Shown piece by piece: positions 3,596 through 63,748 of a DNA stretch of 64,000 nt. The stretch is from Pigmentiphaga kullae (GTDB lineage Bacteria > Pseudomonadota > Gammaproteobacteria > Burkholderiales > Burkholderiaceae_B). The first letter of the stretch is position 1. Each line of letters starts with the position of its first letter. The notes beneath the pieces are model-generated. The model did not search any database and had not been told where the DNA came from. It worked only from the letters and a program-made list of their open reading frames with translations. Position numbers and translations under genes: made by a program. The DNA lies in contig NZ_SGXC01000003.1 in the NCBI RefSeq assembly GCF_004216695.1, forward strand, positions 434,001 to 498,000. The letters run 5' to 3'.

Positions 3596-5500
3596 ATGAG
3601 TCAGACCAACACCTCCGAAACCCTGGGCTTCCAGACCGAAGTCAAGCAGTTGCTGCACCTGATGATCCACTCGCTGTACAGCAACAAGGAAATTTTCCTG
3701 CGCGAGCTGGTCTCCAATGCGTCCGATGCCTGCGACAAGCTGCGTTTCGAGGCCATCGACCGGCCGGAACTGCTGGAAGGCGACGGCGAGACGGCCATAC
3801 GCGTGGGCTTCGACAAGACCGCGCGGACCATCACGATTTCCGACAACGGCATAGGCATGACGCGGGACGAGGCCATTGCCAACCTGGGCACCATCGCCCG
3901 CTCGGGCACGCGCGAGTTCTTCCAGCAACTGACCGGCGACAAGCAGAAGGACGCGCAACTGATCGGCCAGTTCGGCGTGGGCTTCTATTCGTCGTTCATC
4001 GTCGCGCAGAAAGTCACCGTCGTCAGCCGCCGCGCGGGCCTGCCGGCGGACCAGGCGATACGCTGGGAATCGGCCGGCGACGGCGAGTTCACGATCTCGG
4101 CGGCCGAGAAGGCCGGGCGCGGCACGGATATCATCCTGACGCTGCGCGAGGATGAGGACGACTTCCTGTCGTCGTGGAAGCTGCGCGACATCCTGCGCCG
4201 CTATTCGGACCACATCTCCGTTCCCATCCTGATGAAGAAAGAGGAATGGGACGCCGAGAAATCCGAGCAGGTCACCCGCGACGAGGAAGAAACCGTCAAC
4301 CAGGCCAGCGCCCTGTGGACGCGCAGCAAGTCCGAGATCACCGACGAGCAGTACGCCGAGTTCTACAAGCACGTGGCGCACGACTTCGAGGAGCCGCTGG
4401 CCTGGAGCCACAACCGGGTCGAAGGCCGCAGCGAATACACGCAGCTGTTGTACGTGCCCCGGCGCGCGCCGTTCGACATGTGGGACCGCAACAAGAAGCA
4501 CGGAGTCAAGCTGTACGTGAAGCGCGTCTTCATCATGGACGACGCCGAGCAACTGCTGCCCGGCTATCTGCGCTTCGTGCGCGGCGTCATCGATTCGGCC
4601 GACCTGCCGCTGAACGTATCGCGAGAGATCCTGCAGGAAAGCCGCGACGTGCGCGCCATCCGCGAAGGCAGCGCCAAGCGCGTGCTGAGCCTGCTGGAAG
4701 ACCTGGCCGAGAACCGCAAGGACGACTACGCGACGTTCTGGACCGAGTTCGGCCAGGTGCTCAAGGAAGGCGTGGGCGAGGATGCGGCCAACCTGGAGCG
4801 CATCCTGAAGCTGCTGCGCTTCGCGTCCACGCAGGACGGCACCCCCGCGCAGACGGTGTCGCTGGCCGACTACGTGTCCCGCATGAAGGAAGGCCAGGAC
4901 AAGATCTACTACGTCACGGCCGAGACCTTCGCCGCGGCCAGCAGCAGCCCGCACCTGGAGATCTTCCGCAAGAAGGGCATCGAGGTCCTGCTGCTGACCG
5001 ATCGCGTCGATGAATGGATGCTGTCCTTCGTCAACGAGTTCGACGGCAAGCCGCTGACCTCCATCGCCAAGGGCGGCCTGGACCTGGGCGCGCTGGCCGA
5101 CGAGGAAGAGAAGAAGCAGCAGGACGAGGTGTCGGAAGAGCTCAAGCCGGTGGTCGAGCGTTTGAAGGCCGCGCTGGGAGAGGCGGTCAAGGACGTGCGC
5201 GTGACCTTCCGCCTGGTCGATTCCCCCGCCTGCGTGGTGGTGGACCAGCAGGACATGAGCCAGCACCTGCAACGCCTGCTCAAGGCGGCCGGGCAGGCGG
5301 CGCCCGAGTCGCGGCCCATCCTGGAGATCAATCCGGGACATCCGCTGATCGCCCGCGTGCGGCAGGCCGGCGACGCCGATTTCGGCCAGTGGGCCCGGCT
5401 GCTGCTGGACCAGGCCCTGCTGGCCGAGGGCGCGTCGCTGGAGGATCCGGCCGCGTTCGTGCGCAGCATGAACAGCCTGTTGCTGAGCCAGGCCTCTTGA
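3596..5500 (+). CDS. htpG: Chaperone protein HtpG (bacterial Hsp90)
   Basis: A 634-residue cytosolic ATP-dependent chaperone of the Hsp90 family, full length for the family. The N-terminal GHKL ATPase domain shows [26 protein letters not shown] and [11 protein letters not shown]. The middle domain carries the client/ATP-sensing region ([16 protein letters not shown]), and the C-terminal ~130 residues are the dimerisation domain. ATG 3596 is chosen because it begins the conserved [15 protein letters not shown]. The frame stays open upstream through the repeat to 3257, but that extension is repeat sequence. A sigma32-like promoter lies 100 bp upstream. The stop overlaps the start of the next gene, implying coupling. 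Confidence 0.97.
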
Positions 5501-60512: not shown

Positions 60513-60591
<79 letters not shown>

Positions 60592-60607
60592 AAGAATTAC
60601 TCAGGTA

Positions 60608-60850
60608 TCAAGCATTTAGCGCCACCGTGATAGGTGGCGTTTCTTTTTGCGCGATGCCGCTTGACCAAAATTCGACATTTTCCGCGTGCGCGGCGAGGTG
60701 CGAAGTGGCAGGTGCGCGTACTTCTGCACCATCTCGATCCATTCCCAGCCGCCCAGCTCTTTGAGCACCATGAGCGGCGTGCCGCGCTGAACGTGCCAAC
60801 TCGCCCAGGTGTGCCGCAGGTCGTGAATGTGGAAGTCCTCGAACCTGGTC
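60608..60850 (-). pseudogene. Phage-type tyrosine integrase, frameshifted C-terminal remnant
   Basis: On the minus strand, the frame from 60843 reads [18 protein letters not shown], followed by [19 protein letters not shown] and QKYAHL: the His-x-x-Arg, Trp/His and nucleophile-Tyr end of a phage integrase. After YAHL (about 60709) the homologous reading moves to another frame, [15 protein letters not shown], running to a stop at 60608. One missing base (CTGCC for CTGGCC) would restore [19 protein letters not shown]. Upstream of ~60850 the catalytic Arg and DNA-binding domains are gone. It lies 16 bp from the tRNA 3' end, the normal place for an integrase beside attL. Non-functional. Confidence 0.85.
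60620..60648 (+). terminator. Terminator after the CAU tRNA
   Basis: CGCCACC-GTGATA-GGTGGCG followed by TTTCTTTTT on the plus strand, 28 bp after the tRNA. It overlaps the antisense strand of the integrase remnant. Confidence 0.75.
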
Positions 60851-60940
60851 GGGCTGGCCGGGGATGGAGCCCCGGGCCATGCAAGCGATTACCGAGGTGC
60901 TGGATGCGGCCGGGCTGCTCGGATCGATTGGCCCGAAGTG

Positions 60941-61010
60941 ATGTCGAAACCTGATATCCGGCACGATTATGGCGAACTCCAGGGAGGTGAAGGCTTATGC
61001 CGAAGCTTAA
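60941..61010 (+). pseudogene. BrnT-type toxin, collapsed remnant
   Basis: One frame reads DIRHDYGE (60953-60976), like the DxRxDYGE segment of BrnT ribonuclease toxins. A second frame reads ANSREVKAYAEA and stop (60972-61010), like the BrnT C-terminus (RKANxREVKAYAEA). The two overlap at GGCGAA, as if a deletion between two short direct repeats removed the segment between them and shifted the frame. The 5' portion before ~60941 is also missing; an unidentified 25-codon frame ([20 protein letters not shown] and five more residues, 60861-60940) lies there instead. The toxin cannot be functional. Confidence 0.65.
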
Positions 61011-61293
61011 GAAAGGGCTCATCATGCCCACCCCAGAAGAGGATGCGGCGATCAACGCCGGCATCGCCGCGGACCCTGACGCCTACGAGCTGGGCGCACA
61101 GGAGTTCAAGCAACTGCGGAAAGTTGGGCGCCCGCGCGCGGCCCAAGCGAAAGTCCAGCTCACTGTCCGCTACGACCAGGAGGTCGTGGACGCGTTCAAA
61201 TCCAGCGGGCCAGGTTGGCAGTCTAGGATGAATGACGCGCTGCGGGACTGGCTCCGGGATCACCGGGCACGGGACCTTGTGCAAAAGACGTAA
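60997..61293 (+). CDS. brnA: BrnA-type antitoxin (DUF4415), orphaned
   Basis: A 98-residue antitoxin-like protein. MPKLKKGLIMPTPEEDAAIN begins the usual BrnA N-terminus, VQLTVRYDQEVVDAFKSSGP (ribbon-helix-helix-like DUF4415) and GWQSRMNDALRDWLRDHRA complete it. GGAGG at 60983-60987 precedes ATG 60997, which overlaps the toxin remnant's stop by 14 bp, the coupling expected for brnTA. In intact systems BrnA binds BrnT and represses the operon. Here the toxin is deleted while the antitoxin frame looks complete, so it is an orphan, perhaps recently so. An intrinsic terminator follows 47 bp downstream. Confidence 0.82.
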   Translation: MPKLKKGLIMPTPEEDAAINAGIAADPDAYELGAQEFKQLRKVGRPRAAQAKVQLTVRYDQEVVDAFKSSGPGWQSRMNDALRDWLRDHRARDLVQKT

Positions 61294-61339
61294 AAAAACG
61301 TGGCATTTTTCGCCAAGCTCGCAAGCGTTGCGGCCAGAC

Positions 61340-61377
61340 AAAGCCCGCCTGTCTCACGACGGCGGGCTTTTTCTTTT
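61340..61377 (+). terminator. Terminator after brnA
   Basis: A perfect 10-bp stem AAAGCCCGCC/GGCGGGCTTT with an 11-base loop is followed by TTCTTTT. Strong intrinsic terminator in the plus direction and possibly bidirectional. Confidence 0.85.
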
Positions 61378-61460
61378 CAGGTAAAAAAGACCCGCCATTA
61401 CTGACAGGCCCCCAACGCTACTTCGGTGCCATCAGGAGCCGTCAAAAATCCGTCCATCTT

Positions 61461-61667
61461 TCATAGGTCTTGGAGCCATCGACGTTCCTGTACCGTGCGC
61501 GTTCCCGAGTGGCGGCGAGGATTCCCGCACATCCAGCAGCTACATGGCGTTGGGGTATCGATGACCTTGCTCCGCTCAGCTTCTCCGGTCAGTTTGTGAC
61601 CCCACCAATAGGCCCGCTTTCGCAGCAGCCTGGCGCGAGCGGCGCGCCGTTCCGCTTTTCCTGACAT
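61461..61667 (-). CDS. Small Arg-rich CxC/CxxC protein, phage/island-associated
   Basis: A 68-residue basic protein: MSGKAERRAARARLLRKRAY, then WWGHKLTGEAERSKVIDTPT and CSCWMCGNPRRHSG. The CxCxxCGNPRR knuckle resembles small conserved hypothetical proteins common in phages and integrative elements; their function is unknown to me. ATG 61667 is preceded by GAGGA on the minus strand, and the frame is intact, so this may still be expressed. It lies within the scar between the tRNA and the EAL gene. Confidence 0.7.
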   Translation of the reverse strand: MSGKAERRAARARLLRKRAYWWGHKLTGEAERSKVIDTPTPCSCWMCGNPRRHSGTRTVQERRWLQDL

Positions 61668-61705
61668 GGTTTTCCTCGCACATTTTCATACGTTGAATGT
61701 GCGAA

Positions 61706-61724
61706 AGCCCGCTCAGGGCGGGCT
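61706..61724. terminator. GC hairpin at the scar's right side
   Basis: AGCCCGC-TCAG-GGCGGGCT forms a near-perfect hairpin overlapping the stop of the DUF4287 remnant. Only TTT follows on the minus strand, so termination is possible but weak. Confidence 0.4.
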
Positions 61725-61838
61725 ATGCCAGATACCGTGCCACCAGCGCATTGGCATGCCCGTGACCCAGTTGATGTTCCGACTTCAAATGCGCCACCAG
61801 CTCCATGTACTTGAGCGGACCGGCCTTCTTGAGCTTAT
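61723..61838 (-). pseudogene. DUF4287-family protein, C-terminal remnant
   Basis: The minus strand reads YKLKKAGPLKYMELVAHLKS and then EHQLGHGHANALVARYLA, stop at 61723. The LKSEH-LGHGHANALVA stretch is characteristic of the C-terminus of DUF4287 proteins. Only about 38 residues remain: the frame runs directly into the end of the EAL gene, whose TAA is at 61835-61837, with no start codon or ribosome-binding site. This junction marks the right edge of the degraded insertion. Confidence 0.6.
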
Positions 61839-63748
61839 AGGGCCGATTCCGCGTCCTGGCTCCTGTAGTCTCGCGCCAACCACCCCGCGGCCAGCTCATC
61901 CGCGCTCAGCGCAGGCGAAAAATAAAACCCCTGTCCCAAGGTAAACCCGATCTCCCGCAACTGGTTGCGCTGGGCCTCGGTTTCGATGCCTTCGGCCACC
62001 ATCTCCAGATGCATCGCGCACCCCAGTCCGTAGATCGCCCGGCAGACGATTTCCGCGTCATTGCTGGTGCCCAGGTCGTCGATGACGCTCTTGTCGATCT
62101 TGATGCAGTCGAAGGGCAGGGATTTCAGGTGGCCGATGTTCGAGGCGCCGCTGCCGAAATCGTCCAGGGACAGCGGGAAGCCCAGGGCCTTGATGCGATT
62201 GAGTACGTTGATGGACAGGCTCGGATCCGTCATCACGGAAGATTCCGTCAGCTCGAATTCGATCTGCGACGGGCTCAGGCCGTGGCCCAGCACGCAGCGC
62301 AATGCCCGCTCGGGAAATTCGCTGTCGAGCAGCTGTTTGGCGGACAGGTTGACGGACGTTACCGGCGGAGTGAAGCCATGCCGGCGCCACGCGACGAGTT
62401 GGCGACAGGTTTCCTGGAGCACCCATTCCCCCAGCGGGACGATCAGGCCCGAGGTTTCTGCCACGGGAATGAATTCGTCGGGAGCCACCTTGCCGAGGGC
62501 GGGTGAATGCCAGCGGCATAGGGCCTCGACGCCGTGGAGCTTGCCGGTGTCCAGGTGGACCTTGGGCTGGTATTGCAGGAGGAATTCGTTGCCGGTCTCG
62601 ACCGCGCGCCGCAGTTCCACCTCCAGTTTCATGGGGCGGACGGCTTGTACGACGGTGTTTTCGTCGTAGACCTGCAGCCGGTTTTCTCCCAGCGTGATGG
62701 AGCGCGCCAGGGCCTGGTTGCCGTGCGCGATGAGGGTTTCGAGGGCATCGTGGTCGCCCGAGGACGAGCTGATGCCGATGTTCAGGCTCAGGTGCAGGTC
62801 GCGGCCATGGGAGTGGAAGGGGCGGCGAAAGGCGGCGAAGACGTCGTCGACCAGCGCGACGGTCTCGTCCAGGGGATCGGCCATGACGAACAGGCCGAAG
62901 GTGCCGTCGTCGAAGCGCGCCAGGGTGGGGTTCTTCACCACGGCCTCGAGCCGGCGGGCCGCCTCGGTCAGCAGGGACTCGGACAGGCGCGGTCCCAGCG
63001 TCACGCTGACGTTGCGCAGCCTGCGGATGGATATCAGCAGCACGACGATCTTGTCGTCGGAGCCGGCGAGTTTTCGAAGCGCGGCATCCAGTTCGAGCCA
63101 GAAGCCGGCCCGGTTCAGGAGGCCGGAGGCGCGATCCCGGACCAGCAGCGTCCTGACCAGGTCCTGCTGTTCGTTGAGTTTGCGGCCCAGGTTGGTCTTC
63201 TGCTGAATGAGGATGAGCATGCCTCCCGCGATCATGGTCACGCAGAACTGGGAAAGCGGCATGACGATCAGCAGCGATCCGTGCACCTGGGCCAGCCACA
63301 GCGCGGCGATCTGGTTCAGCGAGGCCCAGGCGCCCATCGTGGCGAGGGCGCGCGCCGAGACCGCGCCGGACTCGGGCACCAGGCCGCGCCAGCGCGCCAG
63401 GAAGACGATGCCCAGGAAGATGGTGGCCAGGACGGCCACGCCTATGGGCGCCACGGGGCCGCCTATCCAGAAGCGGGTGACGGCGCCGATGGCCAGGGCG
63501 ACGACCGCGGGCAGGGGGCCGCCGAACAGGTAGGCCAGCACCAGGATGGCGCCCCGCATGTCGGCGATGGTGTGCTGTCCGTGGTGGACCGAGGACATCA
63601 TGGCCAGCCACATCGCGGCGCCGAACAGCACCGACATGTGGAGATTCCCCTGCCTGCCGCCGGGCAGCCACGCCCTGAGCGCGACATAGACCGAAGTCAG
63701 CGCGATCGGAGTCAAGGCGGACAAAAGGAGGGGGAACAGGGTGTTCAT
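61835..63748 (-). CDS. Membrane-anchored EAL phosphodiesterase with degenerate GGDEF domain
   Basis: A 637-residue c-di-GMP protein. The N-terminal ~195 residues are a multi-span sensor resembling 5TMR-LYT domains (GQHTIADMRGAILVLAYLFG). A GGDEF-fold domain (~200-370) has RFDDGTF where the active GGDEF loop should be, so cyclase activity is unlikely. The EAL domain is complete: EALCRW from Glu408, FELTESSVM, LDDFGSGASNIGHLKSLPFD with Asp529/Asp530, IKIDKSVI and EGIETEAQ. It is probably a c-di-GMP hydrolase whose GGDEF part is regulatory. The start ATG 63748 lacks a strong ribosome-binding site. Downstream it abuts the DUF4287 stub. Confidence 0.92.
   Translation of the reverse strand: MNTLFPLLLSALTPIALTSVYVALRAWLPGGRQGNLHMSVLFGAAMWLAMMSSVHHGQHTIADMRGAILVLAYLFGGPLPAVVALAIGAVTRFWIGGPVAPIGVAVLATIFLGIVFLARWRGLVPESGAVSARALATMGAWASLNQIAALWLAQVHGSLLIVMPLSQFCVTMIAGGMLILIQQKTNLGRKLNEQQDLVRTLLVRDRASGLLNRAGFWLELDAALRKLAGSDDKIVVLLISIRRLRNVSVTLGPRLSESLLTEAARRLEAVVKNPTLARFDDGTFGLFVMADPLDETVALVDDVFAAFRRPFHSHGRDLHLSLNIGISSSSGDHDALETLIAHGNQALARSITLGENRLQVYDENTVVQAVRPMKLEVELRRAVETGNEFLLQYQPKVHLDTGKLHGVEALCRWHSPALGKVAPDEFIPVAETSGLIVPLGEWVLQETCRQLVAWRRHGFTPPVTSVNLSAKQLLDSEFPERALRCVLGHGLSPSQIEFELTESSVMTDPSLSINVLNRIKALGFPLSLDDFGSGASNIGHLKSLPFDCIKIDKSVIDDLGTSNDAEIVCRAIYGLGCAMHLEMVAEGIETEAQRNQLREIGFTLGQGFYFSPALSADELAAGWLARDYRSQDAESAL

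Follow-up and report, generated by a model that had tools for sequence, protein, structure and literature searches.

A probable decayed brnTA operon with an intact antitoxin frame beside a tRNA-Met gene of Pigmentiphaga kullae

A stretch of 64,000 nucleotides from Pigmentiphaga kullae (the window, whose positions are used below) carries an open brnA antitoxin gene next to the broken remains of a brnT toxin gene. The locus is very probably a decayed brnTA operon, in which two deletions killed the toxin and left BrnA as a relic antitoxin without promoter or operator. The two deletions and their polarity, the relatives with an intact pair, and a palindrome that recurs upstream of brnT and is lost here were shown by comparison at the DNA level. 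The features of the locus were as follows.

60513-60591, plus strand: tRNA-Met (CAT), which the remnant adjoins; a tRNA-Met lies at the same place in the sister species
60618-60641, plus strand: terminator-like hairpin separating the tRNA from brnA (hairpin search)
60703-60837, minus strand: phage integrase remnant, C-terminal end (PF00589 positions 126-168 of 172, E 1.5e-11)
60917-60919, plus strand: junction of a 147-bp deletion with GCT microhomology (alignment to both intact relatives)
60917-60976, plus strand: first brnT remnant, coding for residues 25-44 of 88 (alignment to relatives; 13 bits with a purpose-built BrnT profile)
60971-60978, plus strand: junction of a 101-bp frameshifting deletion at the direct repeat GGCGAACT, brnT codons 45-76 gone (alignment)
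60972-61010, plus strand: brnT remnant in the other frame, residues 77-88 and stop, containing the brnA Shine-Dalgarno (alignment to relatives)
60997-61293, plus strand: brnA, intact antitoxin ORF of 98 aa (PF14384 match; 97% and 95% identity to the two intact relatives)
61347-61367, plus strand: terminator-like hairpin and T run downstream of brnA (hairpin search)
61461-61667, minus strand: ORF of 68 aa that includes CSCWMCGNPRR; 97% identity to the sister species, no Pfam match
61726-61899, minus strand: truncated DUF4287 gene, intact with 69 aa at locus L112 and 97% identical at L113

In the Pfam profile search, the product of brnA scored 73.3 bits against PF14384 (BrnA_antitoxin) at a cut-off of 26.1, which placed it in the BrnA family. 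A complete BrnT ORF was not found beside it. Only residues 25-44 and 77-88 were left, no piece of the 60917-60976 remnant gave a Pfam match, and the three PF04365 matches obtained from the whole genome all lay away from this locus. The pieces DIRHDYGE and ANSREVKAYAEA were located in separate frames that join at GGCGAACT (60971-60978), as the original prediction had noticed, and corresponded to residues 37-44 (DTRHDYGE) and 77-88 of the BrnT of the sister species. No other toxin-like partner was seen among the ORFs neighbouring brnA. Pairing of brnA with another toxin was rejected, with a brnT remnant upstream and the terminator-like hairpin and other remnants downstream.

The full pair was found in two relatives, in both of which a complete BrnT of 88 aa overlaps the start of BrnA. 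The sister species Pigmentiphaga sp. NML030171 (genome G002, locus L038) carries it at the orthologous locus, with flanks that were 94% (3.7 kb) and 95% (2.2 kb) identical and with a BrnA 95% identical to that of the window. In Burkholderiales bacterium 67-32 (genome G003, locus L037) the intact brnT and brnA lie at another genomic place, and the identity of BrnA was 97%. The PF04365 scores of the two toxins were 72.4 bits (L038) and 71 bits (L037). The window's brnA is an orphan in the sense that an intact antitoxin ORF stands beside a toxin remnant and relatives retain the intact pair. L038 has also suffered losses of its own; it is without an equivalent of 61304-61460, including the terminator-like hairpin of brnA, which is kept in L037. 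A relative of the pair decayed in both genes was observed in another genome (L116, G005:C8:1814500-1816200), where brnT was in pieces and BrnA had lost its N-terminal part and was cut to 61 aa. Judged by eye, it adjoins the same transporter-like ORF as the L037 pair.

Alignment to L038 and L037 defined the endpoints of both deletions. This comparison bore out the original prediction that the toxin was lost by deletion at a short direct repeat and that the brnA frame was kept. It had implied a single deletion across GGCGAA; the slippage type of this deletion was retained, the repeat was 8 bp compared with L038 and the six bases GGCGAA only compared with L037, and an additional deletion upstream had gone unmentioned. 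For the 101-bp deletion, both ends carry the 8-bp repeat in L038, where the matching brnT stretches are 101 bp further apart. Among all possible positions of a 50-300 bp deletion in the matching L038 stretch, junction homology of at least 8 bp occurred in 0.018% and of at least 3 bp in 5.7%. The repeat is therefore more than chance would give, which points to slippage between repeats as the probable origin of the 101-bp deletion, and the 3-bp homology at the junction of the 147-bp deletion is unremarkable. The latter took brnT codons 1-24 together with a promoter-like site and two copies of the palindrome TGTAGCTACA. Since L037 retains both deleted segments, both losses were assigned to the branch of the window. 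Clear matches to the fragment 60857-60919 were restricted to the window's own locus and the L038 locus of G002.

The signals around brnA were then compared with those of the intact pairs. The Shine-Dalgarno of brnA, GGGAGGTGA at 60982-60990 (recognised by eye), is part of the last stretch of brnT in L038 and L037 as well; by alignment it is ancestral rather than a new acquisition of brnA. The terminator expected downstream of brnA was recovered as the hairpin at 61347-61367. No promoter-like site was detected at 60590-61450 of the window. The best candidate in 60592-60996 was matched or exceeded in 250 of 300 shuffles, and that of 60860-60996 alone in 69 of 300. The native promoter of brnA has most likely been lost, and BrnA would be expressed little or not at all, though read-through or a different class of promoter may still supply some transcript.

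What was lost can be seen upstream of brnT in L038. There, TGTAGCTACA occurs at 4695-4704 and 4730-4739, and the second copy overlaps the -10 element of the promoter-like sequence TTGCCA-17-TACAAT (4713-4741), whose score was reached in 7 of 300 shuffles of the DNA around it. No such promoter with palindromes remains upstream of brnT in the window, where it was deleted, and in the whole 64 kb no palindrome was found within 1 mismatch (0.25 expected by chance). For each of 64 distinct brnTA pairs, the best match to the palindrome in the 150 bp before brnT was taken; the other 14 of 78 intact pairs had been set aside, either as duplicates or because their upstream sequence was too short. The pair of G019 (L120) was counted as intact here, though with a stop near the end of BrnT. 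With at most 1 mismatch the palindrome was present in 25 of the 64 upstream regions, in most cases around -24 or -59 relative to the start of BrnT. Mononucleotide shuffles predicted 0.36 such regions, and none of the 64 brnT bodies contained it. The remaining 39 regions were without it at 1 mismatch, so the palindrome is no strict family mark. BrnA controls brnTA transcription in Brucella (PMC11980606), and the palindrome is presumably its operator.

The open frame of brnA was examined for constraint. On the branch of the window, brnA had 2 amino-acid-changing and 2 silent codons and one three-state codon, which are too few to show selection. Pairwise dN/dS was low, at 0.217-0.245 against L038 and 0.045 against L037, which like the open frame counts against a relic, though much of this divergence predates the toxin loss or lies on the branches of the relatives. 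Because only 28 of 882 single substitutions in brnA create a stop, about five changes would be expected to leave the frame open in any case. Between window and L038, 9 gaps (6 large and 3 of one base) were counted in 60592-61832 and 0 in brnA; the chance of this is 0.76^9, about 0.085 by hand, which is suggestive and not significant. None of these results shows that BrnA is being kept, though it may be; as a relic it would be under no selection.

The brnTA remains are part of a decaying prophage-like or island remnant beside tRNA-Met. The remnant is about 1.2 kb long and lies between tRNA-Met and a 637-aa ORF, which by eye we take to resemble a GGDEF/EAL protein, with the integrase end, the brnTA remains, the 68-aa ORF and the DUF4287 gene in this order. 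Over 60640-60837 the DNA was 77% identical to that of a phage integrase gene, and only the first 23 residues of the truncated DUF4287 gene matched L038. The site 60592-61832 is filled differently in G002, G003, G005 and G007, with other DNA in G003, G005 and G007, and none of these four relatives had an empty site. The integrase end is common to the window, L038 and G003 at the tRNA-Met site. These comparisons showed that the site is a tRNA hot spot.

Taken as a history, the preferred reading is that a brnTA type II operon resided in this remnant at tRNA-Met, where a slippage-type deletion of 101 bp between two GGCGAACT copies frameshifted brnT. The 147-bp deletion took away the brnT start along with the promoter-like site and the two palindromes presumed to be operators. 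The brnA ORF and its ribosome-binding site were spared by both, leaving a BrnA that is translatable and yet most likely a relic. Decay of the toxin before the antitoxin is the tolerable order, since a toxin that outlived its antitoxin would go unchecked. That both deletions are assembly errors and the pair is really intact is highly improbable, given two separate junctions and further gaps across the remnant, an assembly of 6.22 Mb in 5 contigs, and substitutions that also separate the residual brnT piece from L038 (95.4% identity over 65 bases). Least credible of all is that the short upstream frame (MSKPDIRHDYGE...), which is open to 61231, is a gene in its own right; its DNA is the middle of the full brnT in L038 and L037, by which this reading was refuted. 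The original prediction had named a conserved gene there as a finding that would overturn it, and the opposite was found.

The original prediction had also offered the remaining BrnA as an anti-addiction factor or a DNA-binding regulator, and neither role was supported, considering the loss of the promoter-like site and palindromes and the few changes in brnA. As an anti-addiction factor, an orphan BrnA would be kept to neutralise the BrnT of incoming phages or islands of the same brnTA clade. Such a role calls for both an expressed BrnA and an invader. It is improbable, although several observations are in line with it. The same proposal has been published for orphan antitoxins generally (PMC7192599, PMC7354431 and PMC2654758), the ribosome-binding site of brnA was spared by both deletions, and BrnA is 95-97% identical to the BrnA of intact pairs in relatives. 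BrnA relatives were also found on two viral contigs (L170 with 67% and L171 with 62% identity), a full-length BrnT preceding that of L170, and in three Bordetella phages (54%, BrnT annotated), so a source of invading brnTA elements exists. However, the promoter-like site and both palindromes are gone and no promoter-like site was found in the remainder; the branch-specific brnA changes (2 amino-acid-changing, 2 silent, one three-state) give no sign of constraint, and the matches in 65 plasmid records were all below 60% identity. Equally improbable is a version in which a freshly orphaned BrnA, made from a captured promoter, shields a Pigmentiphaga relative from phages and islands with brnTA of the same clade; were it true, this would be a natural anti-addiction gene observed shortly after it arose, while the sister species still keeps the form with the toxin. 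It is less probable still, and very unlikely, that BrnA acts in trans as a repressor cross-regulating the intact brnTA operons elsewhere in the genome. Three other BrnT-BrnA pairs are present in the same genome, and the Brucella precedent (PMC11980606) makes such control conceivable, but the three other BrnAs were only 41-47% identical to the orphan and over parts only, their upstream regions had 2, 2 and 3 mismatches to TGTAGCTACA, and paired TGTANNTACA sites 20-30 bases apart were absent from the whole genome. On identity, palindrome mismatches and absent paired sites, this regulation of the three operons was rejected.

The decayed operon was compared with known systems. BrnT/BrnA was described as a type II system in Brucella abortus (Heaton et al. 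2012, as summarised in PMC11980606). The window resembles it in the PF14384 protein, the toxin-first order and a brnA start inside the brnT end, and the intact relatives resemble it in having complete PF04365/PF14384 pairs. Unlike in Brucella, the toxin gene of the window is destroyed, and the promoter-like site and presumed operator are gone. For Klebsiella pneumoniae, 2253 occurrences of orphan antitoxins have been given, with degraded TA remnants as one named origin (PMC7192599). An antitoxin ORF left after toxin loss is common to both cases, whereas here the deletions, junction repeats, polarity and promoter loss can be read from intact relatives. Decay of a chromosomal TA pair is also known for ccdO157 in E. 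coli (Mine et al. 2009, as cited in PMC2654758), which is of a different family. In a literature search, PMC12654330 was the sole match for BrnA together with orphan antitoxins; it lists BrnT/BrnA among TA pairs and treats orphan antitoxins separately. A separate search for Pigmentiphaga toxin-antitoxin systems found no papers. The present case is ordinary genome decay, unusually clear since a sister species keeps the whole pair at the same place, and it offers a clean before-and-after record in which toxin and promoter die by small deletions and the antitoxin frame and ribosome-binding site stay.

The frequency of BrnA beside a broken BrnT was evaluated in 51 genomes, namely that of the window and 50 relatives, which gave 61 PF14384 matches and 62 PF04365 matches. 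A BrnT was taken as complete and open when at least 70 of 77 positions were covered without a stop on the same strand within 500 bp of BrnA. Upstream of the 61 BrnA matches, BrnT was complete in 31, damaged in 8 (G135 being uncertain and G019 counted only for a stop near the end) and not found at Pfam sensitivity in 22. One of these 22, G020:C13, lies at a contig end and is not judgeable. With the purpose-built BrnT profile, pieces above 8 bits were detected in 7 of the 22, including the window; several were the last brnT codons adjoining brnA. About 0.03 would be predicted from the background of the profile, which gave 4 matches over 1.57 million strand-bases, three of them at loci that had been collected for BrnT itself. 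In total, 14-15 of the 61 BrnA matches had a damaged or fragmentary BrnT upstream, a tally that starts from BrnA matches, none of which had an internal stop, and thus says nothing on the death rate of antitoxins. One more would be added by G005, with brnT remnants revealed by DNA alignment and missed by the profile. Orphaning of brnA by toxin decay is common among these relatives, and for this reason an intact orphan antitoxin ORF is by itself no evidence of an anti-addiction role.

The reverse situation was looked for in 20 of the 21 loci with BrnT and no BrnA match (G030:C33 was left out), a match-based sample that gives no fair rate, and no complete BrnT beside a convincing broken BrnA was found in them. 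L156 and L162 had BrnA matches of 9 bits only, and L165 and L167 were among the few with both genes in pieces. The lack of an intact BrnT beside a broken BrnA is what one would predict if it does harm to lose the antitoxin before the toxin. One of the tallied cases with a broken BrnT lies within the genus, where brnT is cut to its C-terminal part and BrnA is open (L125, G007:C1:1553600-1555000). This locus appears orthologous to a pair still complete in the genome of the window (L147, G000:C1:2668000-2669000).
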